A stretch of 52,085 nt of DNA from Candidatus Methylacidiphilales bacterium (GTDB lineage: Bacteria > Verrucomicrobiota > Verrucomicrobiia > Methylacidiphilales > CAZTYG01). Shown one piece after another: positions 1-49,375 of this stretch (its first letter is position 1; every line of letters starts with the position of its first letter). Under the pieces are notes generated by a model that had not been told where the DNA came from, made no database searches, and worked only from the letters and a program-made list of their open reading frames with translations. The position numbers and the translations under genes are program-made. Where the stretch lies: assembly GCA_033875315.1 (NCBI GenBank), contig JANRJG010000001.1:1-52085 (forward strand), given 5' to 3'.

Positions 1-1
1 G

Positions 2-109: not shown

Positions 110-113
110 AAAA

Positions 114-216: not shown

Positions 217-224
217 ATACAAAT

Positions 225-476
225 ATGTCTGATGTCACCTCATTATGCGGGCCAGTAGAGAAATTCGGAGAAGTTTTGATGCTGCGTATTCCACTTGATG
301 CGGGCGGAGACAAGCTTGCAGATTGCTCCAAAGGAATCAGCGAGATTCAGGATGGCTTTCTTTGTATCGAGATCAAGGATTGGCTAGCCCAGAAACTGAG
401 CATTATTGAGGGAAGTTTTGTTACTGTTGATAATGCGGATGGAAAATTCAACATCCGGCTAGAAACCGAAGAATGA
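225..476 (+). CDS. Hypothetical cassette protein, 83 aa
   Basis: An 83-residue protein with an ATG eight bases after the attC core, the compact layout typical of cassettes. It is acidic, ends in a Glu-rich tail and has a mixed alpha/beta look with no transmembrane segment or recognisable motif. The stop lies three bases before the next attC. I do not recognise the family. Codon use is visibly more AT-rich than in the chromosomal genes after 2254, as expected of an acquired cassette. Confidence 0.65.
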   Translation: MSDVTSLCGPVEKFGEVLMLRIPLDAGGDKLADCSKGISEIQDGFLCIEIKDWLAQKLSIIEGSFVTVDNADGKFNIRLETEE

Positions 477-481
477 AAAAA

Positions 482-541
482 ACCGAACCAGACCGTTGAG
501 CCAACGCGCGAGACGCGCGTGGCACACGGTTGACGTTCGGT
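482..541 (+). other. attC site 2 (60 bp)
   Basis: Inverse core ACCGAAC (482-488) and core GTTCGGT (535-541) are exact reverse complements. The interior pairs GCCAACGCGCG with CGCGCGTGGC around an AGA loop, with a bulged A, and ACCG with CGGT nearer the base. It terminates the cassette carrying the 83-residue ORF. Confidence 0.88.
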
Positions 542-549
542 GAAAAAAT

Positions 550-1140
550 ATGCCTCGGCCCGTTCCTCAAAAAATTCTGAAATGCATGCTTCGCCTCATG
601 AGCGCGATCGCTGACATGGAGGAAAGTCGACAGGCATATCAAAGTTTCAAGCAGTCCCCTTCTCTTTTGCAACACTATTTCTTTGAATCCATGGTGATTG
701 CGTATTATAGACCTTTTACGCAGAACCACGGGGTTGGCTGTATCTTGGCTAACTTTCCCAACTACCCGGACTATTCAGATCCTGAAATGAATGCGAGACA
801 CCTACGTATGCAGGATCTCCGCAACAAATTTGTGGCTCACAGCAGTATCGAAGGAACCCGAGTATTTATCGTTCCCCCTGGAGTATTACACCCTGTGAAA
901 CAGTCAACGTCATCCAATTTTGACTATGCCGTTATGCGACGCTATTTTCCTCGTCCTGATTTAGCAGATTGGTTATTTGAGGTTTGTGGCGCGTTCAGAC
1001 TCCGTTTAGAAGCCGAGCTGACTGCACTTCTAGATAGATATGGCCCAAGGATTGCGTCCTACTCTCAGGTCACAGAATTATTGGCTCCAGAAAGTCCATT
1101 TGAGTGGTCAAAAAATGAAGAGGCCGAACCATGTCATTGA
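550..1140 (+). CDS. Hypothetical cassette protein, 196 aa, possible HEPN-like fold
   Basis: A 196-residue, largely helical soluble protein starting at an ATG nine bases after the attC core. Around residue 95-105 it has LRNKFVAHSS, which resembles the R-N-x(n)-H motif of HEPN-type nucleases and AbiU2-like proteins. This is a motif-level resemblance only; spacing (R-x5-H) is at the edge of the family rule. The C-terminal third ends in an acidic tail and the stop codon lies inside the following attC. An unknown function, or a toxin or defence RNase, are both open. Confidence 0.7.
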   Translation: MPRPVPQKILKCMLRLMSAIADMEESRQAYQSFKQSPSLLQHYFFESMVIAYYRPFTQNHGVGCILANFPNYPDYSDPEMNARHLRMQDLRNKFVAHSSIEGTRVFIVPPGVLHPVKQSTSSNFDYAVMRRYFPRPDLADWLFEVCGAFRLRLEAELTALLDRYGPRIASYSQVTELLAPESPFEWSKNEEAEPCH

Positions 1141-1180
1141 CCCAACGCGCTTCGCGCGTTGGTCATGACGGACGTTGGAT
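1123..1180 (+). other. attC site 3 (58 bp)
   Basis: Inverse core GCCGAAC (1123-1129) and core GTTGGAT (1174-1180). Only the AAC/GTT parts match, because the last six bases of the core belong to the next cassette. The inner arms CAACGCGC/GCGCGTTG with a TTC loop and the GTCA/TGAC outer pairing give a good hairpin with bulges. The stop codon of the 196-residue ORF is within it. Confidence 0.87.
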
Positions 1181-1227
1181 AAAAGATTTTCTTTAGATTC
1201 GTTCACAATGTGTTACCAAGGTTTCCT

Positions 1228-1455
1228 ATGCTTACAGACTTAGAAAAATTTCTTCTTAGAAATAATCGCGATCTATTTGAAGTGGCTGGCTCATTGATGT
1301 GGGATACAGCCTGTCTATATGAGTTCATTTCAACTCTTCCCCAGTTGCCCCCAAATGTTCAGAGGGAATACAAAAAGATTTCTGAAGAACGAAAGGCACA
1401 TTCACAACTTTGGAAAGCTCGCGTCCAACCAATTGAACAGATTCTAGACAGCTAA
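1228..1455 (+). CDS. Hypothetical cassette protein, about 75 aa
   Basis: A small helical protein read from ATG 1228; a GTG at 1210 in the same frame would add six residues. It is rich in Leu, Glu and Lys, with a Trp-containing centre and a C-terminal half of charged helix. There are no transmembrane segments, signal peptide or motifs I recognise. It sits alone in its cassette, with 41 bases between the stop and the attC. Size and composition would suit a small regulator, antitoxin or defence accessory, but nothing in the sequence decides this. Confidence 0.6.
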   Translation: MLTDLEKFLLRNNRDLFEVAGSLMWDTACLYEFISTLPQLPPNVQREYKKISEERKAHSQLWKARVQPIEQILDS

Positions 1456-1496
1456 CGACCCGGCTGAACTGATCTTCGGAAAAAAACGAAGCAAAA

Positions 1497-1557
1497 ATCC
1501 AACAATCGCATGCAGCCAACCCGCGCAACGCGGGCGGCTGATGCGGGGACGTTCGAT
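1497..1557 (+). other. attC site 4 (61 bp)
   Basis: Inverse core ATCCAAC (1497-1503) is the exact complement of this cassette's own left end (GTTGGAT, 1174), while the right core is GTTCGAT (1551-1557) contributed by the next cassette. GCATGCAGCC pairs with GGCTGATGC leaving one extrahelical G, and CCCGCG/CGCGGG forms the inner stem. Confidence 0.9.
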
Positions 1558-1563
1558 AAAGTT

Positions 1564-1931
1564 ATGATTGACCTAATCTTTGATGTCTACCAGCAAGGCC
1601 GAATAAATGCGGCAGACTCCCAAGCTAGAAAAGCATCGGAAAAATTTCCGATTTCCGGAGCGAATTGCAGCAGATTACCTTTCGTCTAGACCGATTGACA
1701 TTGGCCAGCCAAGCCATGTGGGAGCTTATTCGGGAGCAGACACAATTAACCGACGCAGATATCAGGAAAAGAGTGGAACAGATCGACATGAGAGATGGCA
1801 TAAAAGATGGGAAAATATCGGCCGTGGTCCTCACTTGTCCAACATGTGGCAAACCTATTAGCTCTAAACGCCCTGTCTGTATTTACTGCGGGGAGCGAAA
1901 TGGAAAACATCGGGTGTTTGATATCACATAA
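1564..1931 (+). pseudogene. Frameshifted zinc-ribbon cassette protein
   Basis: Two frames together rebuild one protein. ATG 1564 (12 bases after the core) reads MIDLIFDVYQQGRINAAD and on to about 1644. The next frame continues through a coiled coil (LDRLTLASQAMWELIRE), an EIDLRDG-like segment and a C-terminal zinc ribbon (CPTCG and CIYCG) to a stop at 1931. I know this arrangement from small PVC and environmental zinc-ribbon proteins. One extra A in the five-A run at 1640-1644 would restore a single frame of about 122 residues. A true mutation, a base-calling error or slippage are all possible. The downstream part alone could start at TTG 1665. Confidence 0.7.
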
Positions 1932-1935
1932 AAGA

Positions 1936-1994
1936 ATCGAACAATCGCATCCAGCCAACGCGCTGACGCGCGCGGCTGATGCGTGACGTTGATA
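1936..1994 (+). other. attC site 5, last in the array (59 bp)
   Basis: Inverse core ATCGAAC (1936-1942) is the exact complement of this cassette's own left end (GTTCGAT, 1551); the right core is GTTGATA (1988-1994). GCATCCAGCC pairs with GGCTGATGC with one extrahelical C. No later sequence complements GTTGATA in an attC-like setting, so the array appears to stop here. Confidence 0.88.
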
Positions 1995-2253
1995 TGGCTG
2001 CATTTGTCAAGGGTCAACACACTTCCAGCTTTCCGTTTTTTTTTCGGTTTCATGTTGGTTTACGAGGGAGAACAGAAGCGAGCAGACCGCGTGGTTTACG
2101 ATGGTGGATGCTGCTGATATTCGCGGGTTGGTGCCGCCGTTATGATGTCATCGTGGCCATTCCAAACACACGATAAAAATCGAAATCTTTGTCGCTGGCG
2201 TGTGGAAACACGCAGCTGAACCCAAAATGCTCCGGCTATTTCAGTTGTCTTTT
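1995..2253. other. Non-coding junction between array and chromosome
   Basis: About 260 bases with no convincing gene. A 65-codon frame covering 1979-2176 starts inside the attC, has atypical composition and no family resemblance. A short perfect-stem hairpin (GCGTGT, loop GGAA, ACACGC, about 2198-2213) stands near the xseA end without a following T run. It probably holds the integron boundary. Confidence 0.5.
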
Positions 2254-15270: not shown

Positions 15271-16467
15271 TCACATTCCCCTGCCCTTGGAAGGAAGCTC
15301 ACGGATGGCTGAGGAAACATCCTGCCAATAATCCGGCCAATGGCGGAATGTCCGGGCTTGAATTTCCCGATAAAGCTTGAGGTAGTGCCCCTCATCGGTG
15401 AGCAATCGGCCGATCGCCTCCACCATCGAACCCGTGTCACCCGGATTCATCGGCTGGCATCCCCCACCCCGGGCCGCCTCCCCGATGGCTCCCTGATCGG
15501 AACACACCACCGGACGTCCATGCCATAGGCTCTCAACGACCGGCAACCCGAACCCCTCATGCAGCGAGGGAAAAACCGTAAACGAGCACGAGGCATACGC
15601 CTCGTGCAATTCCCTCTCGGTCACCTGCGAACGCAGTTGCACATCCCTCCCCGCAGCCCGCAGGGAAGCAATCTTGCGGCGTACCTTCCAAACATAACCC
15701 GGATAACTGTTGCAGCCGATGAGCCGGAGCCGGAAATCCAAACCTTGGTTCCAGAGTCGTTCACAGGCATCGAGCAGCGCGAGCTGGTTCTTGTAGGCTT
15801 GCAGGCGGGCCACCGTAAGGAGACTTTTGGCCGGAAACGCGGGCCGGTGTTCCGGCTGCCTGCCGCCAAATGGCACAGGCCAAAGCGCGGCATGGGTGCG
15901 TGTTGGCTTGATGCCCATTTGTTTCCAGTAAAAGTGCAGGTCTTCCTCCGCTTCCCGCGAAACACAGACGACAAGGTCGAAATGGGAGAGGAAACGGATG
16001 CCGCGTCTGCACAAAAAACTGTCGATCGCCGATTTGGTGCTTCGCTTGAGAGGAATGGCATCATGGAAAACACCAACCATTTGGGCCGGACAAGCCTCCA
16101 ACCCGCTGAAAAAAGTCCCGCGGCTGTCCCAGAGCATATCCGGAACCAGGAGAATGTCCCCGCTGCGGAGTTCACGCGGGAAGTCCATGGCCAGCTGTCG
16201 ATCCCGGTTCAAGTGCCAAATGTCGGTGAGGCTGGGTCCGCCGTAGGCGTCAATCGACTCCCAGCCGCGCGCTTTGCGATCTCCCACTTGTTCGAGGATG
16301 GCAAGGTCCTCTTTTGTGAGGGAACGGTAATTCCGCCGGACGGATTGCCAGCAAACCGGGCGGTAGTCGGAGCCTTGGCCAAGCCAGGCATGCAGCCCCC
16401 TTTGCATGCGCTTGACCCCGGTGTTCAGCACCGTTTTACAGGAACTGGTCACATCGAGGTAAATCAT
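15271..16467 (-). CDS. Glycosyltransferase family 4 (paralogue B)
   Basis: A 398-residue GT4 enzyme with a GT-B fold. The C-terminal donor half carries LLTVARLQAYKNQ, a Tyr/Ser-rich linker, and FPSLHEGFGLPVVESLWHGRPVVCS with the family E-x7-E pattern. It shares its start (MIYLDVTSS), an FHDAIPL segment, SREAEEDL-type sequence and WPVPFGG with the gene upstream, so the two are tandem duplicates that probably add different sugars of one glycan. It lies 32 bases after its paralogue and one base before the SDR. Confidence 0.9.
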   Translation of the reverse strand: MIYLDVTSSCKTVLNTGVKRMQRGLHAWLGQGSDYRPVCWQSVRRNYRSLTKEDLAILEQVGDRKARGWESIDAYGGPSLTDIWHLNRDRQLAMDFPRELRSGDILLVPDMLWDSRGTFFSGLEACPAQMVGVFHDAIPLKRSTKSAIDSFLCRRGIRFLSHFDLVVCVSREAEEDLHFYWKQMGIKPTRTHAALWPVPFGGRQPEHRPAFPAKSLLTVARLQAYKNQLALLDACERLWNQGLDFRLRLIGCNSYPGYVWKVRRKIASLRAAGRDVQLRSQVTERELHEAYASCSFTVFPSLHEGFGLPVVESLWHGRPVVCSDQGAIGEAARGGGCQPMNPGDTGSMVEAIGRLLTDEGHYLKLYREIQARTFRHWPDYWQDVSSAIRELPSKGRGM

Positions 16468-16499
16468 AGCGCAGACTGACTGGTGAAGTGTTCCAGGAA

Positions 16500-17696
16500 T
16501 CAGCCCGCGGGCTGCAACCCCAGTACGGGACCGAGGTCACGCCCGTATTCCTCCCAAGTGCGGAAATGACGTCTGCCTGCTTCCGCGCATAGGGATTGGT
16601 AAAAGTCGGGATCACTAAGAAGCTTTTCCATGGCCGCCGCCAGTTGGGACGGATCATTCTGGTCGATCTGTAAGCATCCCCCTCCATCTGAAGCCACCTC
16701 TCCGATGGCCCCATTGCGACCACAGATCACCGGACGCCCGTGCCAGAGACTTTCCAAAATGGGCAAACCGAATCCCTCCATCCTGGAGGGGAACACCGTG
16801 AACGAGGCCGCCTGGTAGGCCTGGTTCAATTCCTCGTCGCTGATGTGCTTGCGCCAGCGGACCGGGCGACCCTTGGCCGCCAGTTCGTCCACCCGCTGAC
16901 AGATGCGCCAGGTGTCCGTCACCGAATCCTCGACTCCAATGAGGTCCAGACTGAATTCTATCCCCCGGCTCCAAAGGCTCTCGCAGGCCTCCAACAACAC
17001 CAGGTGGTTCTTTCGCAGTTTAAGTCGGGCCACGTAGATAAGGTGGCGGGCGGTCTGGTTGGGGCGGTTGTCCGGACGCGGACCCGAAAAAGGAACCGGC
17101 CAAACCAGCAACGGAGTGGGCTTGGCCTCCACACCCATTTCCGCCCAATAACGCAGAAGATCGTCGCGCACCTCTTTTGAAATGCAGATCACCTGGTCGA
17201 GGCGTCCGAGAGCCGCAACATAGTGCCGGAAAACCGTATCGTTGCTCTCGGCCTGCCCGGGAATGTTGAGCGGCATGGCATCATGGAAGACCGCGACCTT
17301 TCGCCCCGGCCAGCTGGCCAGTCTTTTCCAGGAGTAGATGCGCAGATCCCAGCAAAGGTCGGGAATGAAAAGCACATCATTCTTTCCCATGACCGAGGAC
17401 AGATCAATCAGGCGGGCGCCCCGTGTTGCCGAGTCCCAACAGGATGCCAGCCAGCTTTTCCACTGCCAGCGCCCCGGAACGGCCTGGCCTGACTGGTAGG
17501 AGGCGAATGGGTTTTCGAGGAAATCCCTTTCCCGTTTGGAAAGCAGGGCATAGTTCCGGCGGAAGAAATCCCAGCGGACCGGAGTGACCGCGGCACCCAT
17601 GCCCGAGGCGAGCAAACGATGAAGACCCCTAACAGTCCTCTGGACTCCCATATTGATCGGGGAGGCGGAGGCGCTGGTTACATCCATGTAAATCAT
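16500..17696 (-). CDS. Glycosyltransferase family 4 (paralogue A)
   Basis: A GT4 enzyme of about 398 residues. IYVARLKLRKNHLVLLEACE starts the donor-binding half, and FPSRMEGFGLPILESLWHGR carries the E-x7-E motif. ATG 17696 is preferred because it aligns the N-terminus MIYMDVTSA with its paralogue; an ATG at 17723 overlaps the ATPase gene end and adds nine residues. FHDAMPLN and WPVPFSG are shared with paralogue B. It follows the Wzt-like ATPase by 13 bases, tying glycan assembly to export. Confidence 0.88.
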   Translation of the reverse strand: MIYMDVTSASASPINMGVQRTVRGLHRLLASGMGAAVTPVRWDFFRRNYALLSKRERDFLENPFASYQSGQAVPGRWQWKSWLASCWDSATRGARLIDLSSVMGKNDVLFIPDLCWDLRIYSWKRLASWPGRKVAVFHDAMPLNIPGQAESNDTVFRHYVAALGRLDQVICISKEVRDDLLRYWAEMGVEAKPTPLLVWPVPFSGPRPDNRPNQTARHLIYVARLKLRKNHLVLLEACESLWSRGIEFSLDLIGVEDSVTDTWRICQRVDELAAKGRPVRWRKHISDEELNQAYQAASFTVFPSRMEGFGLPILESLWHGRPVICGRNGAIGEVASDGGGCLQIDQNDPSQLAAAMEKLLSDPDFYQSLCAEAGRRHFRTWEEYGRDLGPVLGLQPAG

Positions 17697-17709
17697 GACG
17701 CCGGGATAC

Positions 17710-18429
17710 TCAACCGATGGCATTGTGCGGCCCGCTCATGGCTTGATCGTATTTGGCCATGACCACCTCCGGGGTCCCGTCGGCCAGCAATTCCCCGTGT
17801 TCGATCCATATGGCCCTGCTGCACAAATCCCTGATGGTTTCGGTGTCGTGTGAAACCATGACGGCGGCCTTTCCGGATTTCAGCCTTTCCCGGACAGCGG
17901 CCCCCGACTTGACCCGGAAAGTCCGGTCTCCCACGGACAGCATTTCATCGATCAGGAGCACATCAGGGGCGACTTCCAGTGCCGTGGCAAAACCGAGGCG
18001 GGCATGCATCCCGCTCGAATAGGTGTAAATCGGCTGCTCGAAGAAATCGCCCAGTTCGGAAAAATCCTTGATCCGCTCCAAGCTGGCCACCATGTGTTCC
18101 TTGGTCGCCCCGAGAATCATGCCGTTGAGTATGGCGTTTTCCCTGCCCGAAAGTGTGGAATGCGAACCCACACCGATGGAAAGCAGGGTGCTGCAAAGCT
18201 TGGGTCGTATCCAAATCTTCCCGCGGTCGGGCTCGATGATGCCGGACAACAACCTGAGGAGCGTGCTTTTGCCCGCCCCGTTGCGTCCAATGACACCGAG
18301 TGTTTCACCGGCATGCAATTCGAAGGAAATGCTTTTGAGGGCCCAGAAATCGGATCGGGACCCTTTGAAAAAACCCTGGGCTTTGCGGTAGCAAACGCCC
18401 GCCTGTTCCAATCGGATGATGCTTTCCAT
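17710..18429 (-). CDS. Polysaccharide ABC exporter ATPase (Wzt/KpsT type)
   Basis: A 239-residue ATPase driving export of O-antigen, capsule or teichoic-type glycans. Walker A is GRNGAGKST, the signature motif is the family-typical YSSGMHARLGFA, and Walker B is DVLLIDEML followed by the switch His in VSHD. It stops after the nucleotide-binding domain, so it lacks the C-terminal carbohydrate-recognition domain of O9a-type Wzt and is closer to KpsT/TagH-like short forms. It starts four bases after the permease stop. The substrate is presumably the glycan made by the adjacent GT4 pair. Confidence 0.93.
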   Translation of the reverse strand: MESIIRLEQAGVCYRKAQGFFKGSRSDFWALKSISFELHAGETLGVIGRNGAGKSTLLRLLSGIIEPDRGKIWIRPKLCSTLLSIGVGSHSTLSGRENAILNGMILGATKEHMVASLERIKDFSELGDFFEQPIYTYSSGMHARLGFATALEVAPDVLLIDEMLSVGDRTFRVKSGAAVRERLKSGKAAVMVSHDTETIRDLCSRAIWIEHGELLADGTPEVVMAKYDQAMSGPHNAIG

Positions 18430-18433
18430 GAGA

Positions 18434-19201
18434 TCAGCGGTGGATGGATTTCACAATGGAGCGGTCGATTTTGCGGTAAATGGAGAACGATCCAACCACG
18501 AGGAGCAAACCGAACGCGCAGGCCCATCCCAAGCGGAGAAAATTCGGCCACGAGTCGTGAAGAAGAATGGAGCGGTAGGATTCCACCAAAACCGCCATGG
18601 GGTTCAAATAAAGCAAGGAGTGATACTGCACCGGCACCTGGTCGGCCGAGAAGAATATTCCCGACACCAGCATGATCGAACGAAGAACCGCATCGACGGC
18701 GAACCTCCCATCCGGGAAATAAGGGATCAGGGCGGCCACAGGGAGACTGAAGCCGAGGATCAGAATCAACTGGGTGACGAAGAGACAGGGAAGGGCGAGA
18801 TAATGGATATTCGGGGGGTTGCCCGAGAAAAAACACCACAGGAGCAGCAGTCCGAACAAAAACATGAACCGCCAGATACCGGCCAGGATGGAAATAAGGG
18901 GTAATACGATTTTGGGAAGGTAAACCAACTTCAGCATCATGCTGGCCTCAAAAATGGACTGGGAGGAACTGACCACGGATGCGCTGAACCATTGCCAAAC
19001 AATGGTGCCCACGAGAAGGAAAGAGACAGCCCCCACATTCGATTGCTGCATGACCAGGATCAAAATGGCGTAAAACAGTATGGTGTTGACCAAAGGCTCC
19101 AAGAACCACCAGACGTAGCCCATGTAATTGATCTGGGCCTCCGCTTTGATTTCAGCGTAGGCCCGGTAAAGGATGATGTTCCAATAACGCTTCCAATCCA
19201 T
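18434..19201 (-). CDS. Polysaccharide ABC exporter permease (Wzm/ABC-2 type)
   Basis: A 255-residue ABC-2 membrane protein. The amphipathic N-terminus (WKRYWNIILYRAYAEIKAEA) precedes about six transmembrane helices; the typical YLWWFLEP-like segment appears as GYVWWFLEPLVNT. A short LNPMAVLVESYRSIL loop lies before the last helices, as in Wzm and TagG. It opens the minus-strand operon; a 105-base gap separates it from the divergent acyltransferase, so promoters for both must lie there. Confidence 0.92.
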   Translation of the reverse strand: MDWKRYWNIILYRAYAEIKAEAQINYMGYVWWFLEPLVNTILFYAILILVMQQSNVGAVSFLLVGTIVWQWFSASVVSSSQSIFEASMMLKLVYLPKIVLPLISILAGIWRFMFLFGLLLLWCFFSGNPPNIHYLALPCLFVTQLILILGFSLPVAALIPYFPDGRFAVDAVLRSIMLVSGIFFSADQVPVQYHSLLYLNPMAVLVESYRSILLHDSWPNFLRLGWACAFGLLLVVGSFSIYRKIDRSIVKSIHR

Positions 19202-19306
19202 GGGACGAAGCAGTCAAATCTATGGGGACCACCGTCCGGGCGCAACGCTTATCGTCGCGCGGAATATACTTGTCCCAGAAGCCATTGCCCCGCATTTTTT
19301 CCCGGC

Positions 19307-20023
19307 ATGAACGCATGGTTTTGGCATCCCGACCATGTGGACTCCAAACACATTCCCGGGGTATCGCATTTCTGGAGGCATGTGAGCCTCTGCCTGCCCC
19401 TGCAGCGCCTGTATTCGGCGTTTGTCACGATGCTTTTTCGTATGCGCCTAACCGGTGCCGGGCACCTGCCTGTGGATCGCCCTTGTATTTTCATTTCGAA
19501 TCACGGCTCCCATTACGACGGTTTTTTTCTCTTTGCCGTGCTGCTCCGAATCTGTGACAGGGGGGTGGTGCCGGTGGTCTGGTTCCGCATGCTGGAGTAT
19601 CCCATCGTCGGACCCATCTTGAGATGCCTGCGCGCCGTCCCGATCAGCCATGAGGCCGATTTCATGAGCCAGCGCTCCATCCATCTGCGTGGCATGATCG
19701 AGCAGATCCAAGCGGGACGCCATCTGCTGATTTTGCCTGAAGGACGAAGGGGCGACGTCCTGGGAACATTCCAACCGGGCGCGGGCATTGTCGCCATCCG
19801 CACGGGGTCACCCCTGGTTCCCATCACTCTCCGGGGAGTGCAGCCACTGTTCAAGGAGCTGGACCGCCTTCCCAGACTGCGCGGAAATGTGGAAGTCGTC
19901 ATCCACCCTCCCCTATTCCCGGAAAAAACACCTGATGAGATGGTGTATGCCTCCAAGCTTATGGAACAGGCACGCGCCAGGGTGGCTACCGCGCTGGATT
20001 ACCCGCGCAAAGAGGACGCCTGA
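19307..20023 (+). CDS. PlsC-like 1-acyl-glycerol-3-phosphate acyltransferase family protein
   Basis: A 238-residue membrane-associated acyltransferase. The catalytic HX4D is seen as His66-Asp71 in NHGSHYDG; an EGRRG segment replaces the usual EGTRS, and PLVPITLRG is the typical fourth motif region. Family members move a fatty acyl chain from acyl-ACP or acyl-CoA onto a lysolipid. The frame is open much further upstream, but only from ATG 19307 does it resemble the family. It is transcribed away from the exporter operon and could finish the lipid built by this locus. Confidence 0.88.
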   Translation: MNAWFWHPDHVDSKHIPGVSHFWRHVSLCLPLQRLYSAFVTMLFRMRLTGAGHLPVDRPCIFISNHGSHYDGFFLFAVLLRICDRGVVPVVWFRMLEYPIVGPILRCLRAVPISHEADFMSQRSIHLRGMIEQIQAGRHLLILPEGRRGDVLGTFQPGAGIVAIRTGSPLVPITLRGVQPLFKELDRLPRLRGNVEVVIHPPLFPEKTPDEMVYASKLMEQARARVATALDYPRKEDA

Positions 20024-20044
20024 CCGTGGCCCCTCAATGAACCA

Positions 20045-22909
20045 TCAAAGCCGATAGTTGAGGAACGGTGCGGGCTCCAGAACCGGTCCGGAACGGACAG
20101 CCAGGCGGGGCGGCAGGTCGGCGGCTTCCAATGCCTTGCGCCAGCAAAGCTCCGCGCGAGTATCGAACTCACGGGCAAGGCGGGCATCCACGCGCCCCGC
20201 CTGCAAATGATGGGCGATCCCGTTGCGATGATCCGTGACGAACCTGCGGCATTCCTCGTCAATCTCCGACTGGCTGTGGAAGAACCGGCCATGGCGGTTG
20301 GCAAAGTATATTTTCGAAAAAAGAATCGGGCCATGATCCACGATTACATCATCCTGGCGCAAATCCGAGGACGCGTTGTGGTGGGTCACCCAAGCCCCCG
20401 GCAACTGGCGGATCACAAACCCCGCATCATTGACCCGGAGACAAAGCTCGGTCTCATCGAGGTAGTAGGCGTAATTTTCGTCAAATCCACCCAATTCCGA
20501 CAACACCGAACGGCGGAACACGGCATTCGTGCCCTGGAGGTAGGGGAATCGGTAACTGCCCGGGTAATTGCGTTCGGAGCAGGCCGCCTTCAACAGCCAA
20601 TTGCTTCTACCTAGGCGGTCAGAGGAGGCATACTCGTATTGGAAGGATTTGCCTGTCCGGTCGAGCACCTTGCCTCCAGCAGCACCCACACCGGCATGAT
20701 CAAAGCCCTGCAATACTTGGATCAACCATAATGGGTCCGGCACCGCATCGTCGTCGAGATAGGCAATGAATTCGCCGGCTGCCATCGACCATCCGATGTT
20801 GCGGGAGACCGAGAGGTTGGCCAGGTCGGTTTGGGCAACCTTGATCCTGCCCCGCCTGCCCTCCAGAACACCGGCGGTACCGTCCCTGGATGGTCCATTG
20901 ACCACCACCACTTCGAATTCCGGACCGGTCAGCTGTTCCAGGCCACGGAGGGTTTGCTCGAGCATGGCCGCGCGGTTGAGGGTGCAAATCACCACGCTCA
21001 CGGCACCCGTTCGGACCTTTGGCCGGGATGGACTTGTACAGGTGCGGGTTCCACGAAGGGCCAATTGGCGCAAATCGTCTCGCATCGCTTCGGGAAGAGC
21101 CATCGAGGCAACCAATCTGGCGGTGGGTCCCCTGCGGTGCAGTAACCAGTGCCAGATCCCGGCCAGCGAAACACTGCGCACCGGATGATCCAACCTCAGC
21201 CCCTTCAGAGCGAAACCCAACTGCCGGTGGTCATCCGCATTTTGTCCGATCGAGGCGGGAGAACACACCGGGTGGATCGACAAAGCGACACGGTAAAAAC
21301 CCTCTGCATCCGCGGGGCCCAGTGGCACACTAAGATTTCGAACTGGGCACGGGAAAAAAAATAAAAAGTCCCGGACCTGCCGGCCGTTCACACTGATCTT
21401 GATCCGCTTCCAGAGCAGCCTTGGATTGACGAATGCCCGCCCCCGAAGCTTCAGAACGATGGACTGTCCATCGGGGGCGGTCACTTCAAAGAACAACGAG
21501 GCCTCAGGTCCATCAGTCCAAGCTCCCCAGGATTCACGGGCGGACCAGCCTGGGCCCAAATAGGGGCCAAACGAATGGGGCGTGCGGAGCTGATAATTCA
21601 CCTCAGGCACGAGGGGGGCGGCAATCAAAGCAGATTTCTCCCCGGGGTGGGGCGGAACAGCCGGTCCAGAGGAGGCGGATGGGGCAGCAGGCATACCGGT
21701 GGCCGATTCCAGTGCCTGCCAGGCCAGGAGGGCGGAGGCAGCCCAGCTGAATTGCGCGGCCCGGGCCAAACCATGGGCCACCAAGCGTTCGCGGAATGCC
21801 GGGTCCTGCAAGGCACGCTGCAGCAAGAGACTCAGCGAGGGCACATCGTGGGGATCGAACATGGCATCCGACAGGCCGAGCACCTCCGGGATGCTGGTGG
21901 TGTTCGAGCCAATCACGGCCGCGCCGCACGACATGGCTTCCAGCACAGGAAGCCCAAAGCCCTCGTGCCACGAGGGAAAAACAAACAGGCTGGAAAACTG
22001 GTAAAAGGCCGCAAGTTCCTCATCCCTGACATAACCGGTGAAGACCACATTGGCGTCTTCCAAACCCAGTTGGGTGGCGAGTTGTTGCAGAGCGGAACGC
22101 CGTCTGGATTCGATACCGCACACGACAGCCAATTGGAATTGCTTCCTCAGTTCCGGAGGCAGTGAGGCGTAGGCTCTCAATAGTGTTTCGATGTTTTTCT
22201 GGGGACTGTCCCCCCCACAGAACATCACATAGGGCCGGGTGATCCCGAATTTGCCCAAGAGACAGCAGCGCTCCCTTTCCGTATAGGAACGGGGGCGGAA
22301 GAGTGCATCGGCAGCACAGGAAATCGAAACCACACGCCCTGGGGGAAGATTCATCTGTTGGATACCTTCGTTGCGCGAAGATTCCGAAATCGCCAAAAAA
22401 AGGCCGGCATGCGACAGATGCCCCAGTTTTTCTGCGTACCACGCCCTCAGCAAAGGGCTGTTCAAAAAAATTTGCGGGTGGATGAGGGGCATGAGGTCGT
22501 GAAGACTCACCACCTGGAGATAACCAGGGTCCCCTGCCGCCAATGACGTCACGGATTCATCCGCCAATCCCTCAAAGAGACTGCTCAGGAGCACCGCGTC
22601 GGGACGGAGCGAGGAAAGGATCTTTTGCCGTTCATTTTCTGCCTGCAACCGCATGCGCGCGCTAGCTGGATGCCTCCAGGCCACGGGTCCTGTGAGATCC
22701 ATGACCACGATCCGTTCCGGGGAGATCCAAGGCTGCAGTTTGTTTCGCAGCGGTTCGATCGTATCTGGAAAAAGTCCTGAGAGCAGTATCCAAACCTCGT
22801 GGCCGCGGGAGTCCGCCGCCAGGGCTTTGGCCAAGGAAACCGACTGTCGACCGATACCCCTCTGGCCGCTCTGCCCCTGGGCAGACTGCAAATCGATCAC
22901 CAGTTTCAT
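20045..22909 (-). CDS. Two-headed glycosyltransferase (GT4 plus GT2), 954 aa
   Basis: A large chimeric enzyme. Residues about 1-400 form a GT4 module (GIGRQSVSLAKALA at the start, CGGDSPQKNIETLLRAY, and FPSWHEGFGLPVLEAMSCGA). Residues about 430-600 look like a beta-rich sandwich insert with no clear catalytic motif. Residues about 635-870 form a GT2 module (VSVVICTLNRAAMLEQTL, YLDDDAVPDP as the DxD site, GGFDENYAYYLDETELCLR). It stands alone after a 270-base gap and probably adds two sugars of the surface glycan. The stop lies 21 bases beyond the convergent acyltransferase stop. Confidence 0.9.
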   Translation of the reverse strand: MKLVIDLQSAQGQSGQRGIGRQSVSLAKALAADSRGHEVWILLSGLFPDTIEPLRNKLQPWISPERIVVMDLTGPVAWRHPASARMRLQAENERQKILSSLRPDAVLLSSLFEGLADESVTSLAAGDPGYLQVVSLHDLMPLIHPQIFLNSPLLRAWYAEKLGHLSHAGLFLAISESSRNEGIQQMNLPPGRVVSISCAADALFRPRSYTERERCCLLGKFGITRPYVMFCGGDSPQKNIETLLRAYASLPPELRKQFQLAVVCGIESRRRSALQQLATQLGLEDANVVFTGYVRDEELAAFYQFSSLFVFPSWHEGFGLPVLEAMSCGAAVIGSNTTSIPEVLGLSDAMFDPHDVPSLSLLLQRALQDPAFRERLVAHGLARAAQFSWAASALLAWQALESATGMPAAPSASSGPAVPPHPGEKSALIAAPLVPEVNYQLRTPHSFGPYLGPGWSARESWGAWTDGPEASLFFEVTAPDGQSIVLKLRGRAFVNPRLLWKRIKISVNGRQVRDFLFFFPCPVRNLSVPLGPADAEGFYRVALSIHPVCSPASIGQNADDHRQLGFALKGLRLDHPVRSVSLAGIWHWLLHRRGPTARLVASMALPEAMRDDLRQLALRGTRTCTSPSRPKVRTGAVSVVICTLNRAAMLEQTLRGLEQLTGPEFEVVVVNGPSRDGTAGVLEGRRGRIKVAQTDLANLSVSRNIGWSMAAGEFIAYLDDDAVPDPLWLIQVLQGFDHAGVGAAGGKVLDRTGKSFQYEYASSDRLGRSNWLLKAACSERNYPGSYRFPYLQGTNAVFRRSVLSELGGFDENYAYYLDETELCLRVNDAGFVIRQLPGAWVTHHNASSDLRQDDVIVDHGPILFSKIYFANRHGRFFHSQSEIDEECRRFVTDHRNGIAHHLQAGRVDARLAREFDTRAELCWRKALEAADLPPRLAVRSGPVLEPAPFLNYRL

Positions 22910-30615: not shown

Positions 30616-31677
30616 TCAACGCCCCGCCACAATCTTCAAATCATCCGCCAACGAGACCCTCGGTCCTTTGGCTCCGGGGTCGAGAGGTTTACGCAAGCGT
30701 TCCAGGGCCTCGCGGAACCGTTCTTCTTTGGCTCCGGGCATCGAGGCCCCGACCGCTGCCAGACCACCGGCAAGCTTGCGCCAGCGGGCGGCATCCATCG
30801 CCGTCCATGCCGGCCGGGATGCCATCCCGCCGGCCAACTGGCCCAACCGTTTGAAAACCGCCTCGGTCTGGTTGTCATTCCATTTTCCCCCGGCCAACTG
30901 GCGGGCAAAATCATCACAGACAACCGCGTCGGGCTGCTCAGGCAAGACACGTGCGAATTCTGCCGCTGGCAGGATTTCCTTCAAAACCCACAGGGTGGAT
31001 TCCCAGTCCTCGCGCACCACGTCATCCTCCGCAGTCTTGCGGCGATGGGCCAATTCACGCAGCACCGCCAATTGACCGGTGATCCATGCCTGGGGTCCGC
31101 CCCAGATTTCTTTCCAATGCCGCGGCTCGCGTTCCTGGTGCGACTCCAATTCAAAATGCAACCGGGGGTGTCCGGCCCTGACCAGTTCCGGATCAATCAC
31201 TTGGTGGCAGGCCACGCAGGTATTGGCCCGGAGATAGAGATCCTGCAAATCACGCATCCCTGCCGCCACCCGCTGCCCCCGGCTGTAGTCTTTCCGGGTG
31301 TGCGAGCGCCACCAACCCTCCGCAGCTCCGTGGCACGACTCGCAGGATATCCCCTCCTCAATCCGGGCCGAGGCCGCCAGCCTCTCCGGTGCCACTGCGG
31401 CAAATGGGGCATGACAAGTGGTGCAACGCGCATCCCGGGCCGCATCGGCCATGCCCAACGCCTCGGCCATCCGGGCCGAACGTGCCGTGGTCAGTGTGCT
31501 GTGGCCACGCGAGTGCGGATCAGCCCGGAACCACACGGTGTATTGCTTGGAGAGGTCCCCCGCACCGCCGTGGCATCCGCTCGTCGAACAATTCTTGGAG
31601 CCGACAAAGTCGGGGGCTGCTGCCAACAGCAACGGCCCAAACGCAAACGCCGATGAAAACAGGACGAACGCCTTCAT
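30616..31677 (-). CDS. Secreted tetrahaem cytochrome c (c554-like)
   Basis: A periplasmic cytochrome of 353 residues with a signal peptide (MKAFVLFSSAFAFGPLLLAAA). Four haem sites lie in the N-terminal half: CSTSGCH, which is the less common CX4CH form, then CTTCH, CESCH and CVACH, with distal His candidates such as HSRGH and HPRLH. This resembles the cytochrome c554 family of electron carriers. The C-terminal 150 residues are helical and haem-free. It is transcribed away from the FeS/decahaem operon across a short shared promoter region, suggesting a common electron-transfer task. The ATG follows a GGA, a weak ribosome site. Confidence 0.85.
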   Translation of the reverse strand: MKAFVLFSSAFAFGPLLLAAAPDFVGSKNCSTSGCHGGAGDLSKQYTVWFRADPHSRGHSTLTTARSARMAEALGMADAARDARCTTCHAPFAAVAPERLAASARIEEGISCESCHGAAEGWWRSHTRKDYSRGQRVAAGMRDLQDLYLRANTCVACHQVIDPELVRAGHPRLHFELESHQEREPRHWKEIWGGPQAWITGQLAVLRELAHRRKTAEDDVVREDWESTLWVLKEILPAAEFARVLPEQPDAVVCDDFARQLAGGKWNDNQTEAVFKRLGQLAGGMASRPAWTAMDAARWRKLAGGLAAVGASMPGAKEERFREALERLRKPLDPGAKGPRVSLADDLKIVAGR

Positions 31678-31786
31678 TTCCAGCTTTGGTGGGCGCTTAT
31701 GGCCGATGTTCAGGTCCGGGCAATTTTTTGAAATTCTCACACAAGCGTCCTTGAGATTGGCATGTACTCTGTTACCAAAGTCATAG

Positions 31787-33490
31787 ATGGTCACCGTTCC
31801 AATGGAAAGCAAACTTGGTCAGGGAGAGGCCCTGAGCTGCGATCGGCTGCTCGGCTTCCTTCCCGCCCTCGGCGAGGTTCCCAAGGGAGTCTTCACCAAA
31901 TTCGCCGAAGGCGCCGCCTCCGTCCGCCATTTCAAGGCCGGCGACCTCGTCTGCCGCGAGGGTGACTTCGGTTCCACCGCCTTTTACATCGTCTCGGGCA
32001 GTGTGGACATCTTCATCGCCTCACCCCAGGCCCACATCACCACTTCCCTGCAAACCGGCGGATTCTTCGGCCGCACCATCGCCCGCATGAAGAGTGCGCT
32101 CCGGCCTGAAACCAACGATGGCCGCAAGGACACCCCTCCCCGTCGCCGCTGGATCCCCGTCGATGCCAGTGTCGACCTCGCCGTCGGCTCCCCCATCGCC
32201 CAACTGGGTGCGGGGGAACTTTTCGGGGAGATGACCTGCCGTACCTTCCAACCCCGGTCCGCCACGGTGCGCGCACGCGAGGATTGCGTCATGGTCGAGA
32301 TGCTCCGGGTCGTCCTCGATATGCTCGTGGGCACGCGCGATATCATGGAGGAGATCAAATCGACCACCAAGGTCAAAGCCCCCACCTTCAAGGGCACCTC
32401 CTTCAAAGCCGAACTCGACAAAAAATACCGCGAGCGCGCCCTGCTCAACCACATCCGCAACGTCCCGATCTTTGAATCGCTCGATGAATCCTTCGTCCAA
32501 CAGCTCTGCGCCCGGGCCGGACTGCAAACCTTCTACAAGGGCCAGGTCATCTGTCGTGAGAACGACCCCGCCGACCGCTTCTACCTCATCCGCCAGGGGA
32601 TGGTAAAGGTGAGCCAGGGCATGCCCGGGGGCGAAATGGTCCTCACCTATCTTTCCCGTGGCGACTACTTCGGGGAAATCGGGCTGGTCCGCCGTCTCCC
32701 CCGCACCGCCACCTGCACCGCCACCGACACGGTCGACCTCGTGGTCATCGGCGCCGACGACTTCCATGCCATGCTGGCCGCCTATCCCTCGGTGGCGCAA
32801 ACGATCGAGGCCGTCGTCGACCAGCGTCTGGCTCCTTCCAGCCGGGAGCGCCCGGCTTCGCTCCCCGCGAGTTCCACTCTGCGGGAAGCCCTCGACCTCG
32901 GTCTCCTCCAGGCGCAAAACCTCCTCCTCATCGATCTCGAAAAGTGCACCCGTTGCGATCTTTGCGTGCAGGCCTGTGCCGAAGCCCATGAAGGGGTCAC
33001 CCGTCTCCTCCGCGACGGCACCCGCTACCAGAATTACCTCGTGGCCACCGCCTGCCGATCCTGCCAGGACCCGCTCTGCATGACCCAGTGCCCGGTCGGT
33101 TCCATCCGCCGGAAGGAAAGCCTGGAAATCGTCATTGAGGACTGGTGCATCGGTTGCACCAAGTGCGCCGAGCTCTGTCCCTACGGCAACATCACCATGC
33201 ATCCCATCGAGTGGAAGCTGGACAAAGCGGAAACGGCAAACAAAAAACCGGAAACACCACCGGCCACAGCCACCCCGGCGGCCAAGAAACCCGCCGCCAC
33301 AAGCAAGGCCACCACCTGCGACCTCTGCACCGACCTGGCCACTCCGAGCTGCGTCTATGCCTGTCCGCACGACGCCGCCATGCGCGTCAATCCGGTCGAC
33401 TTCTTCTCCCGGAGAATGCCCGGTCTGTCCGGATTGCTGATGGGCGAGAAAAAACCCATCCAACGCGCCCATTTCCGCACCACCCATTGA
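31787..33490 (+). CDS. Tandem cyclic-nucleotide-domain protein fused to a 4x[4Fe-4S] ferredoxin module
   Basis: A 567-residue cytoplasmic-type protein. Domain one (about residues 25-190) is a CNB fold with a long insert and GEMTCRTFQPRSATVRA as phosphate-binding cassette. Domain two (about 220-350) is a second CNB fold with GEIGLVRRLPRTATCTA. Residues 385-540 carry four Cys clusters starting at 387 (CTRCDLCVQAC), about 421, 454 (CIGCTKCAELCP) and 511 (CDLC..ACP), the DmsB/NrfC/HybA pattern for four [4Fe-4S] centres, with a Pro/Ala/Lys linker before the last. It may be an electron-transfer subunit gated by a nucleotide ligand. ATG 31802 is an alternative start. Confidence 0.88.
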   Translation: MVTVPMESKLGQGEALSCDRLLGFLPALGEVPKGVFTKFAEGAASVRHFKAGDLVCREGDFGSTAFYIVSGSVDIFIASPQAHITTSLQTGGFFGRTIARMKSALRPETNDGRKDTPPRRRWIPVDASVDLAVGSPIAQLGAGELFGEMTCRTFQPRSATVRAREDCVMVEMLRVVLDMLVGTRDIMEEIKSTTKVKAPTFKGTSFKAELDKKYRERALLNHIRNVPIFESLDESFVQQLCARAGLQTFYKGQVICRENDPADRFYLIRQGMVKVSQGMPGGEMVLTYLSRGDYFGEIGLVRRLPRTATCTATDTVDLVVIGADDFHAMLAAYPSVAQTIEAVVDQRLAPSSRERPASLPASSTLREALDLGLLQAQNLLLIDLEKCTRCDLCVQACAEAHEGVTRLLRDGTRYQNYLVATACRSCQDPLCMTQCPVGSIRRKESLEIVIEDWCIGCTKCAELCPYGNITMHPIEWKLDKAETANKKPETPPATATPAAKKPAATSKATTCDLCTDLATPSCVYACPHDAAMRVNPVDFFSRRMPGLSGLLMGEKKPIQRAHFRTTH

Positions 33491-33497
33491 CCCTCCC

Positions 33498-34433
33498 ATG
33501 ATCATCGACCGAAGCCACCGCATCTGGGCCGTCACCACGGGCATCGCCACCTTCCTGGCCGGGCTTGCCTATTACCTGACTTTTTACTCGGGCCTCATCC
33601 CCGGTTCGCTCCATGAAAGTTTCGGTGGCAGTCTGCTGGGTCTGTTCTTTGGCATGGTGTCCTTTCTCATCTTCCTTTTCGCCGCGCTTTTGGGCTGGCG
33701 GCGCAAACACCCCAGCTGGCGCATCGGACGGATGCAGTTCTGGATGAAGGGCCACATCTGGCTGACTTTCCTCACCGTTCCGCTCATCCTCTTCCACTGC
33801 GGGTTCCGCTTCGGTGGTTTTCAAACGTCCCTCCTCATGGGCATCTACCTAGCCGTGATGCTCAGTGGTGTCTATGGACTCCTGCTCCAACATGTGCTTC
33901 CCCGCATGATGATCGACCGCCTGCCGGATGAGGTCGTCTTCGAGCAAATCCCTTTCCTTCGCGGCCAAATCGTCAGCCGGGCCCAGGCCATCGAAAAGTC
34001 CCTTGCCGAGGCCTGCCACCCGCCCGCGCCTGCTGAAACGGTTCAGGAACCGGATCCGAACGCTGATTCCGCAGCCACATCAGCCACCGCCACCCCGGAG
34101 CCGGCCCAAACCGGCACACCCCCAGACATCCTGCTCCGGGGAACCCGGGAATCGATCCTGCCCTACCTGGAACTGGACCGCGGCGACCGCCACGCCCTCG
34201 GCAATGTCCAGTCAACCGAGGATTTTTTCATCCAGTTGCGCGTTCAGACCCACGCCCACTGGCACCCGCAACTGGAGGAATTGAAAGACCTGTGCGTGGA
34301 ACGTCGCAAACTCGACCTCCAGACGAAACTCCAACACTGGCTCCACGGCTGGATTCTGGCCCACGCCCCCTTTTCCTTCATCCTCATCATCCTGACTGTC
34401 TGGCACATCGGTGTCGCCCTCTTCGCCTACTGA
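33498..34433 (+). CDS. His-rich polytopic membrane protein, possible cytochrome b-like subunit
   Basis: A 311-residue integral membrane protein. About four hydrophobic helices lie in residues 10-130 and one at about 282-308, separated by a Pro/Ala-rich soluble linker (about 165-225). Histidines sit in or beside helices: GHIWLTFLTVPLILFHCGF, LLQHVLP, LHGWILAHAPFSF and VWHIGVALF, the kind of placement that binds haem b. I do not recognise a named family. It begins seven bases after the FeS protein and precedes the decahaem gene, so it probably passes electrons across the membrane between them. Confidence 0.82.
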   Translation: MIIDRSHRIWAVTTGIATFLAGLAYYLTFYSGLIPGSLHESFGGSLLGLFFGMVSFLIFLFAALLGWRRKHPSWRIGRMQFWMKGHIWLTFLTVPLILFHCGFRFGGFQTSLLMGIYLAVMLSGVYGLLLQHVLPRMMIDRLPDEVVFEQIPFLRGQIVSRAQAIEKSLAEACHPPAPAETVQEPDPNADSAATSATATPEPAQTGTPPDILLRGTRESILPYLELDRGDRHALGNVQSTEDFFIQLRVQTHAHWHPQLEELKDLCVERRKLDLQTKLQHWLHGWILAHAPFSFILIILTVWHIGVALFAY

Positions 34434-34504
34434 ACCGGTCCATAACCACAAAATCCCCACAACAAAGAATACCCCCATTGATCCGTATTTATTAGTGGTC
34501 CGAT

Positions 34505-35974
34505 ATGTCTTCATCCAAACCCAGCCTGAAACAGATCGCCAAGCGCTACGCCGGCAATCTGTCCTATTTCAAGGAGAACCACTACTTTCGCACCCTGCGC
34601 AAGCATCTCTTCCTGTACAGCACCCTGGCCGCCCTGTTGCTCGTGCTCGCGGCCACCATCATCACCACTTGGGAATCCTCCGTCTCCGGAAAATACCTCT
34701 TATCCCGCATCTACAATCCGGGCCCGGTTTCGCAAGCCCACGCCGATCTGGCCAACGACTGTGCCGCCTGCCACGGTCGGCCCAATTCCATCTTCCAGGT
34801 ATCGGTCGAAAATTCGCCCGTCGACACCGCCTGCATGAAGTGCCACCAGCAGCACGACTTCCACGCCAGCCAGTCGCCCCGCACCCACTCCTGCACCGCC
34901 TGCCACCACGAACACCTCACCGCCGGGCCGATGAAACCCGTGGCCGACGCCAATTGCGCTTCCTGCCACGGCAACACCCAAACCATGAGGGCAGCCGAAA
35001 CGACAGCCCGATCCCTGCCACCCTCGGCCCTTGATCTGACCCCGCGCGACGGACACACCCATTTCCAACCGGGCCGTTCGGCCACCCCGCCCGCCGTTTT
35101 CACCTCTTTTGAAAAAGGCCACCCCGAGTGGCAGATCCACCGGGAAAAACTCAAAGACCCGAATTCCCTGGCCTTCAACCACGCCCTGCACCTCAAGGGC
35201 GACGGCATCCCCCTCGTCGGGGGAAAGAAGCTGGATTGCAACTACTGCCACCAACCCGACCCCAGCGGATCCTACCTCCAACCGATGGTCTTCGAGAAAA
35301 ACTGCCAAGCCTGCCACTCCCTCCAATTCGACCCCCGCAATCCCGACCTCGCCATCCCCCATGGCAGTGTCGAGGCCGTGCAGGCCTACCTGGCCAGTCT
35401 ACCGCTCCAATATGCCAAGAAAGGCCGCGCCCGGGGCATTTCCGGCGAGGCCGAACTCCGGGCCTACGTCATGGCCCAGATCGAAGCCCTACGACAGGAT
35501 GTGCGTTCCGGTGATGACCTGACCAAGAAAGTTTTCTTCAGCGATGCCGACAAAGGTCCGACCGGTGCGATCAAGGGTATGCCCGAGGAGGGCCGGGCCC
35601 GCTTTGCCGGTTGTGCCTACTGCCACCAGGTTGGCGGCCAGGCCACCAATACGCCGGTTGTCAAAGCCCCAACCACCCCGGATCGCTGGCTGGGACGTGC
35701 CTTTTTCAATCACGCCAAACACCAGCATGTGAGCTGCAGCGAGTGCCATCAGGCCGAAGCCAGCCATCTGACGAGCGACATCCTCATGCCCACGATGGTC
35801 AGTTGCCAGAAGTGCCACAGCGCCCAGGGGGGTATTGTCGCCAGTTGTGAGACCTGCCACAGCTACCATCCCCACCCCACCGCGCCGGCCGCCCATGCCC
35901 ATTTCCAAAAAACCGCATCATCCGCAGCTCCGAAGACGCTCAAATCCCTCATGACGGCGACCGAAGTCCGCTGA
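34505..35974 (+). CDS. Membrane-anchored decahaem cytochrome c
   Basis: A 489-residue protein with a 40-residue N-terminal cytoplasmic stretch, one transmembrane helix (about 38-58, LFLYSTLAALLLVLAATII) and a periplasmic part with ten CXXCH haem sites: CAACH, CMKCH, CTACH, CASCH, CNYCH, CQACH, CAYCH, CSECH, CQKCH and CETCH. Extra His residues such as FNHALHLKG and FNHAKHQH supply distal ligands, as in cytochrome c7/c3-type and Qrc/Hmc-type proteins. It lies 71 bases after the membrane protein. It would carry electrons to or from the periplasm. Confidence 0.92.
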   Translation: MSSSKPSLKQIAKRYAGNLSYFKENHYFRTLRKHLFLYSTLAALLLVLAATIITTWESSVSGKYLLSRIYNPGPVSQAHADLANDCAACHGRPNSIFQVSVENSPVDTACMKCHQQHDFHASQSPRTHSCTACHHEHLTAGPMKPVADANCASCHGNTQTMRAAETTARSLPPSALDLTPRDGHTHFQPGRSATPPAVFTSFEKGHPEWQIHREKLKDPNSLAFNHALHLKGDGIPLVGGKKLDCNYCHQPDPSGSYLQPMVFEKNCQACHSLQFDPRNPDLAIPHGSVEAVQAYLASLPLQYAKKGRARGISGEAELRAYVMAQIEALRQDVRSGDDLTKKVFFSDADKGPTGAIKGMPEEGRARFAGCAYCHQVGGQATNTPVVKAPTTPDRWLGRAFFNHAKHQHVSCSECHQAEASHLTSDILMPTMVSCQKCHSAQGGIVASCETCHSYHPHPTAPAAHAHFQKTASSAAPKTLKSLMTATEVR

Positions 35975-48985: not shown

Positions 48986-49341
48986 GGGGGCGATTTGGAT
49001 TCGACTCTTGGTTTCTGTGGCGTGTGGCAAGTCGAGGACTGGACCTGTTGGCCTCGTTAAATCCCCGGGTATCCAAACATTAATTGCTAACGAAGAGTTG
49101 GCTCTCGCGGCCTAAAGTGCCGTGACGTTCCGCCCCTGACCCCGGCTGGGGGGACCGGAACGCCATCAGCCGGGTCACTGGACAGGTGGGACACCGACCT
49201 GTCCGGGGGAATCAACGCGGTGACTAAGGCCGTCCGGCTCGGGGCTGGGCAACGGGCGGCTCGAAAATCCAACAGCTCCTAAACTTGTAGAGGCACGTCG
49301 TAGCCGCCTTGAGGACGCGGGTTCGATCCCCGCCGCCTCCA
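48986..49341 (+). ncRNA. ssrA: Transfer-messenger RNA (tmRNA)
   Basis: A 356-base one-piece tmRNA that rescues stalled ribosomes. The 5' GGGGGCG (48986-48992) pairs with CGCCTCC (49334-49340) as acceptor stem with one G-U. ATTTGGATTCGAC is the conserved D-loop analogue, and the T arm is GCGGG-TTCGATC-CCCGC. The tag frame reads GCT AAC GAA GAG TTG GCT CTC GCG GCC TAA (49086-49115), ending ANEELALAA; the first residue is uncertain because the resume codon was not identified. Pseudoknot-forming GC-rich repeats fill 49120-49250. CCA is not encoded. Confidence 0.95.
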
Positions 49342-49375
49342 GCCTTCGCTGAGGGTTTACCCGAAACCGAAGGCT
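49341..49375. terminator. Hairpin after tmRNA
   Basis: AGCCTTCG (49341-49348) pairs exactly with CGAAGGCT (49368-49375), with GGGT-TT-ACCC forming an inner stem. No T run follows, so it is a weak or factor-assisted terminator at best, but it sits immediately after the mature tmRNA end and before the convergent trpB stop. A second GGCGA/TCGCC pairing further on could add to it. Confidence 0.4.

Follow-up and report, generated by a model that had tools for sequence, protein, structure and literature searches.

To our knowledge, the inner-membrane proteins that feed electrons into chains of extracellular electron transfer all oxidize quinol, and the known influence of cyclic nucleotides on these chains is exerted at the level of transcription. 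A survey of these entry proteins (PMC6295460) covers the quinol-linked families CymA, CbcL/MtoC/MtrH, and ImcH. In Verrucomicrobia, clusters encoding porins and multihaem cytochromes have been proposed to serve extracellular electron transfer, with the inner-membrane step left unspecified as “ET in IM” (He et al. 2017, PMC5615132). Here, we describe a locus of four genes, P1 to P4, in a 52,085-nt stretch of DNA (the window, by which we mean the whole stretch analyzed) from the genome of a Candidatus Methylacidiphilales bacterium. The system would share with Mtr/CymA of Shewanella and ImcH/CbcL of Geobacter the general layout of an inner-membrane entry, a periplasmic multihaem relay, and an outer-membrane porin–cytochrome exit, but it differs at the entry, where a cytoplasmic iron–sulfur (Fe-S) hub, apparently fed by NAD(P)H in relatives, takes the place of a quinol oxidase and is combined with a different b-type subunit and with cyclic-nucleotide-binding (CNB) domains. 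In our reading, P2, P3, and P4 probably form the section across the inner membrane of a quinone-independent conduit that would lead low-potential electrons from the cytoplasm to the outer membrane and that is probably gated by cyclic AMP (cAMP) or cyclic GMP (cGMP). It would be an extracellular-type electron conduit whose entry complex and regulatory principle have, as far as we know, no described counterpart; within the literature covered by our full-text search, systems combining CNB domains, Fe-S proteins, and multihaem or decahaem cytochromes were not found, and only the Verrucomicrobia porin–multihaem clusters came up.

All four genes lie where a preliminary description of this DNA had placed them, and the composition given there holds: two CNB domains fused to a DmsB/NrfC-like four-cluster module (P2; Pfam cNMP_binding and Fer4, with 16 Cys), a ten-haem anchored cytochrome (P4), a tetrahaem c554-like protein (P1), and, in the remaining membrane protein (P3), no match to an NrfD-type subunit in Pfam or NCBIfam. 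P2 (567 aa; 31787–33490, plus strand) would be the electron-transfer hub. Its C-terminal module (32924–33391) resembles DmsB, HydN, FDH3-beta, and HycB and matches Fer4 families in Pfam and NCBIfam; a phmmer search of the PDB matches it to HycB4 at 2e-17, and also to formate hydrogenlyase subunit 2 and ArrB. The 16 Cys residues form four 4Fe-4S motifs and are near-invariant across an alignment of 31 homologues, with one or two exceptions at two of the sites. P2 therefore carries the 16-Cys arrangement of the DmsB/NrfC/HycB four-cluster group, and in this respect is like the DmsB/NrfC/PsrB-type subunits of NrfCD, PsrABC, and HycB systems. It differs from them in its partner, which is not of the NrfD/PsrC type, in its two fused CNB domains, and in the lack of a molybdopterin subunit.

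The two CNB domains precede this module. P2 matches the Pfam cNMP_binding family (PF00027) at 2e-41, and the two domains can be placed at approximately residues 18–185 (CNB1, 31838–32341; from the alignment, AlphaFold2 modeling, and conservation) and 219–349 (CNB2, 32441–32833; from structure superposition and conservation), both on the plus strand. Each holds a phosphate-binding cassette, FGEMTCRTFQPRSAT in CNB1 (32222–32266) and FGEIGLVRRLPRTAT in CNB2 (32669–32713), and both cassettes have the canonical E-x8-R spacing and an RSA/RTA motif; an E-to-R spacing of nine is known from PKA. The contact residues, a Glu for the ribose and an Arg for the phosphate, are kept in 30/31 homologues for CNB1 (E148/R157) and in 28/31 for CNB2 (E297/R306). 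In the AlphaFold2 model of P2 the CNB domains are confident, and CNB2 superposes on nucleotide-bound structures, with a Z score of 21.6 to PKG II CNB-B:cGMP (root-mean-square deviation [rmsd] 2.2, 145 aligned residues) and 21.1 to SthK:cAMP (rmsd 1.6, 137 aligned). The fold and the cassette expected of a PF00027 member are thus present, as judged from sequence and model. Two peculiarities of CNB1 are worth recording. Cys151, inside the cassette (FGEMTC), is invariant in 31/31 homologues and is possibly a thiol or redox switch, and an insertion of about 45 residues (approximately 82–126; window 32030–32165) contains, in homologues, a recurring short basic amphipathic stretch such as FFGRTIARMKSALR.

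Is a second messenger at hand to bind these pockets? Statements on the window's own genome (G000, 95.65% complete) rest here and below on targeted searches. Six class III cyclases score above cut-off in it, and the adenylate-type Lys plus Asp/Thr residues are found in 4/5 of those whose motifs were checked; cAMP is therefore probably available in this organism. Two intact CNB pockets would be explained most simply by a cyclic-nucleotide switch, and most likely cAMP (or cGMP) bound by the CNB pair would open or close the Fe-S chain. Direct control of the conduit by a second messenger had been proposed in the preliminary description, and the pockets, whose ligand residues are conserved rather than lost, are consistent with it. 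The competing view, in which the conduit is real but escapes second-messenger gating, its CNB domains having a structural role or a different ligand, seems to us rather unlikely, if to be taken seriously. CNB folds that do not bind nucleotides are common, the CNB2 pocket is degenerate in a few homologues (L042, L049, and L062), and the insertion and the invariant cassette Cys of CNB1 could also be taken in its favor; it has to contend with the retention of Glu and Arg and the canonical motifs described above, with nearest structures that are nucleotide-bound CNB domains, and with the adenylate-type cyclases in the genome.

P3 (311 aa; 33498–34433, plus strand) follows P2 after 7 bp and is predicted to be a five-helix, di-haem b-type membrane subunit. 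Four histidines, H86 (33753), H100 (33795), H289 (34362), and H303 (34404), are invariant in 26/26 homologues and form two H-x13-H pairs, a spacing known from the stacked bis-histidine haems of bc1 and of NOX/ferric reductase proteins. The AlphaFold2 model (mean predicted local distance difference test score 88.6) has five membrane helices at residues 5–29, 46–70, 79–101, 108–141, and 281–309, with a helical insert at 148–280 ahead of the last helix. Taken together, sequence and model point to a two-haem b-type protein with one H-x13-H pair on each of two helices; the tentative label of b-type membrane protein in the preliminary description is now well supported. Given the positive residues in the 67–86 loop, this loop and the insert would be cytoplasmic, which would place H86/H289 on the cytoplasmic side and H100/H303 on the periplasmic side. 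The nearest known proteins are found among the ferric reductase/NOX, b561, and DUF4405 families, with which P3 shares the two H-x13-H pairs on two helices. Some of its homologues match DUF4405, Ni_hydr_CYTB, or Ferric_reduct sub-threshold (E in the 1e-3 range), its own Pfam matches fall below the gathering score, and structural similarity is weak: STEAP1 scores Z 7.1 (rmsd 5.2, 156 aligned) and SpNOX scores Z 6.0 (rmsd 5.5, 138 aligned), values that are not decisive for helical proteins. Most of the structural matches are generic helical bundles; STEAP1 and SpNOX alone fit the haem pattern. P3 differs from these families in its five helices, in the cytoplasmic insert of about 130 residues before the last helix, and in that its chain includes no flavin/NADPH domain. 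A sequence search of the PDB gave no meaningful match to P3, nor was P3 found in a plasmid collection.

P4 (489 aa; 34505–35974, plus strand), 71 bp downstream of P3 and co-directional with P2 and P3, has exactly ten CXXCH motifs, matches Pfam Cytochrome_C7/c3, and has one N-terminal transmembrane helix, so that it would be an inner-membrane-anchored decahaem c-type cytochrome. Nearly all of its complete homologues have exactly ten haem sites, and a PDB sequence search with it gave no meaningful match. P1 (30616–31677, minus strand) has a signal peptide (MKAFVLFSSAFAFGPLLLAAA), one CX4CH and three CXXCH motifs, and a Pfam Cytochrome_C554 match at 8e-10, in line with a periplasmic tetrahaem cytochrome. 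The preliminary description was right that P1 is divergent from P2, but the listed open reading frame reaches 31812, beyond the likely ATG at 31677; with this start, P1 and P2 do not overlap. The divergent P1 beside P2 is kept in L029, L032, L035, L038, L043–L045, and L065. Neither P1 nor P4 matches the NapC/NirT family in Pfam, their families being C554, C7, and c3, which again sets the system apart from Mtr/CymA and ImcH/CbcL.

Across phyla, the genes are found together again and in an unchanged order, far more than chance would produce. One scan of public genomes gave 37 P2 relatives, in Verrucomicrobiota, Planctomycetota, Acidobacteriota, Wallbacteria, Methylomirabilota, Omnitrophota, and Myxococcota, where the phyla are taken from record titles, which can be wrong for metagenome-assembled genomes. 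The closest relative of the window, for instance, is L065, titled “Blastochloris”, and the titles of L065, L050–L052, and L034 (Blastochloris, Kuenenia, Actinobacteria) are doubtful when set against the relatedness of the proteins, so that titles are no basis for taxonomy. P3 and P4 lie directly downstream of P2 in most relatives, often with P1 divergent alongside, and a profile finds P3 in 35/37 P2 genomes. When 289 Verrucomicrobiota genomes were searched with P3, it was found in 14, and in all of these P2 adjoins it. Genomic co-occurrence, which the preliminary description had proposed as a check, is thus strong.

An Acidobacteriota sample (247 genomes from the phylum to which L036 belongs by its title) shows the adjacent P2–P3 arrangement again in L103–L116, by P3 profile matches, and in addition contains single proteins in which the two CNB domains, the 4Fe-4S module, and the five-helix P3 domain are joined (L117–L124, L126, L128, and L131). 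Because such fusions exist, there is strong evidence, at the level of gene structure, that P2 and P3 function as one unit. In a more distant P3-like group (L129 and L130), the five-helix protein is followed by a Fer4/FAD–NAD oxidoreductase without CNB domains. Since P3-like proteins are paired there with a different partner, the P3 membrane subunit seems to serve as an adaptor for more than one kind of cytoplasmic donor.

As to the electron donor, the absence of a catalytic oxidoreductase noted in the preliminary description is true of this locus and does not extend to those relatives that carry an NAD(P)H module of the NuoEF/HoxU or the FNR type. P2 has an N-terminal NuoG/HoxU-type extension (2Fe-2S plus 4Fe-4S) in 12/31 aligned homologues, and the gene upstream of such long forms, on contigs that extend to it, encodes a NuoE–NuoF fusion; in L036 this gene matches Complex1_51K (6.6e-43), 2Fe-2S_thioredx, SLBB, and NADH_4Fe-4S. 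Four Verrucomicrobiota loci (L149–L152) have instead a gene for an FNR-type FAD/NAD(P)/2Fe-2S reductase, unrelated to NuoEF, before P2. As two non-homologous NAD(P)H modules attach to the same P2 hub, NAD(P)H is likely to be the donor in the lineages that have them. The upstream NuoE–NuoF fusion and the NuoG/HoxU-like N-terminus of the long forms recall NuoEFG, HoxFU, and HydABC, from which the window version differs in lacking both modules and in an output to b-type and decahaem cytochromes rather than to quinone, hydrogenase, or ferredoxin. The window P2 has no N-terminal Fer2_4 domain by Pfam and falls within a Verrucomicrobiota clade of seven without an adjacent donor (Shimodaira–Hasegawa-like approximate likelihood ratio test support 100); here our guess is a soluble ferredoxin. 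The single FNR match from its own genome resembles CysJ, a sulfite reductase flavoprotein, and was discarded as a linked donor. The genome also has three COX1 matches and no NuoF, and NADH is probably oxidized there by another enzyme. The attachment of dehydrogenase modules, fused or adjacent, also led us to reject a view of P2 as a sensor of redox state and cyclic nucleotide, with P3 and P4 as its sensory input. CNB domains are mostly regulatory, and an output partner might be encoded elsewhere, which lends this idea some appeal; P2 has no signaling output domain, it has four complete [4Fe-4S] sites, and it is tightly linked to the barrel–cytochrome pair described below, so that we regard a purely sensory role as highly improbable.

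The acceptor side becomes visible in relatives. In L149–L151 the operon reads P1 (divergent, beside FNR and P2), FNR, P2, P3, P4, a putative barrel protein of about 800 aa, and a ten-haem LVIVD-repeat cytochrome of about 1300 aa; genes for the barrel and the LVIVD cytochrome also lie near P2–P3–P4 in Planctomycetota, Acidobacteriota, and Wallbacteria loci. In the window's own genome the pair is encoded in trans, on contig C19 (L148, 9516–15762), with the LVIVD decahaem cytochrome at 15516–19424 and the predicted outer-membrane barrel at 19426–21762, both on the minus strand and 1 bp apart; genes for K+ transport (Kdp-like) and RND efflux are found in the neighborhood. For the acceptor, which the preliminary description had left blank together with the donor, the predicted barrel and the LVIVD decahaem now provide a candidate. 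Among the 289 Verrucomicrobiota genomes, all nine with LVIVD also have P3, which 14 of the genomes carry (Fisher p = 5.9e-14), and in the Acidobacteriota sample P3-family matches occur in 25/26 strong-LVIVD genomes (p = 2.9e-20); these p values are inflated by shared ancestry, and the pattern is repeated in two phyla. Within the latter sample, LVIVD is present in 24/26 genomes with a CNB-linked P3 and in 0/4 inspected genomes that have P3-like proteins outside the CNB context.

The barrel adjoining the decahaem cytochrome is a feature common with Mtr-type conduits, which differ in their barrel type: the own-genome barrel has no MtrB_PioB match in Pfam. Sequence searches of the PDB with the barrel and the LVIVD cytochrome gave no meaningful match. 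A further reading is that the system ends, at the level of the periplasm or the outer membrane, in a catalytic multihaem reductase, the LVIVD protein acting on a soluble acceptor, rather than in extracellular transfer. The own-genome LVIVD cytochrome is about 50–57% identical to its Planctomycetota and Acidobacteriota homologues, a level of cross-phylum conservation more enzyme-like than wire-like. Since, where a linked locus extends far enough, the predicted barrel almost always adjoins it, as in porin–cytochrome systems, we think such a terminal reductase unlikely. The clusters of He et al. (2017), as its passages on them describe, resemble this outer half in combining a predicted porin with periplasmic or extracellular multihaem cytochromes in Verrucomicrobia, but have octahaem cytochromes, and those passages mention no CNB–Fe-S protein; in this comparison, made by text and not by sequence, they may overlap with the barrel–LVIVD half of the system.

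These observations can be joined into a path. Low-potential electrons from a cytoplasmic donor, NAD(P)H through the NuoEF/HoxU module or the FNR-type reductase in relatives and perhaps ferredoxin here, would first reach the [4Fe-4S] chain of P2 and then the two b haems of P3, the one on the cytoplasmic side (H86/H289) before the one on the periplasmic side (H100/H303), and go on to the ten c haems of P4. From a complex so assembled, periplasmic P1 would relay them to the outer-membrane barrel and LVIVD decahaem, and the cell would likely use this route to unload excess reducing power onto an extracellular acceptor. We favor outward flow, as the inside-negative potential helps electrons to leave and no energy-coupling subunit is seen in the cluster. 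The inverse direction, from an extracellular or periplasmic donor through LVIVD, P1, P4, and P3 to cytoplasmic ferredoxin or NAD(P)+, is conceivable in that the sequence leaves the direction undecided, modules of the NuoEF and FNR types can in principle run both ways, and outer-membrane cytochromes could oxidize extracellular donors. It would have to drive electrons to low-potential carriers against the membrane potential with no quinone or proton-coupling subunit seen in the cluster, in an organism whose three COX1 matches speak for conventional oxidative respiration, and is on balance improbable.

Several points weigh against an outward, cyclic-nucleotide-gated conduit. The AlphaFold2 model of P2 is poor over the Fe-S module and allows no structural route to be traced from the CNB domains to the clusters, and the CNB domains might bind another ligand or nothing. 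P3 has no Pfam or NCBIfam family above cut-off, and Foldseek with its model found no PDB match at E<=0.001. A NuoF is missing from the own genome (no PF01512 match), as is an ortholog of the linked FNR. Finally, the prediction that the protein of about 800 aa is an outer-membrane barrel draws on weak Alginate_exp matches in homologues (best 1.4e-5), C-terminal aromatic strands, and a lack of transmembrane helices, and an amphipathicity test did not clearly separate the candidate from controls. We hold it as a tentative proposal, with somewhat less than an even chance, that this is a widespread quinone-free kind of respiratory complex, where a cyclic nucleotide bound directly by the electron-carrying Fe-S subunit would switch the flow of electrons from NAD(P)H or ferredoxin across the inner membrane to an outer-membrane cytochrome. 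If true, a respiratory electron chain would be gated post-translationally by a second messenger, control would be built into an electron exit that bypasses quinones, and several phyla of mostly uncultured bacteria would have an unrecognized redox outlet.

The 109-bp region between the divergent P1 and P2 (31678–31786) is likely regulatory; an Rfam scan of the window found no RNA family in it, and only a tmRNA elsewhere. This tmRNA gene (48986–49344, plus strand), with the tag peptide ANEELALAA, is ordinary. The first 2000 positions of the window (1–2000) have a GC content of 0.47, compared with about 0.60 elsewhere, and several small open reading frames, and are possibly recently acquired DNA at the start of the contig.

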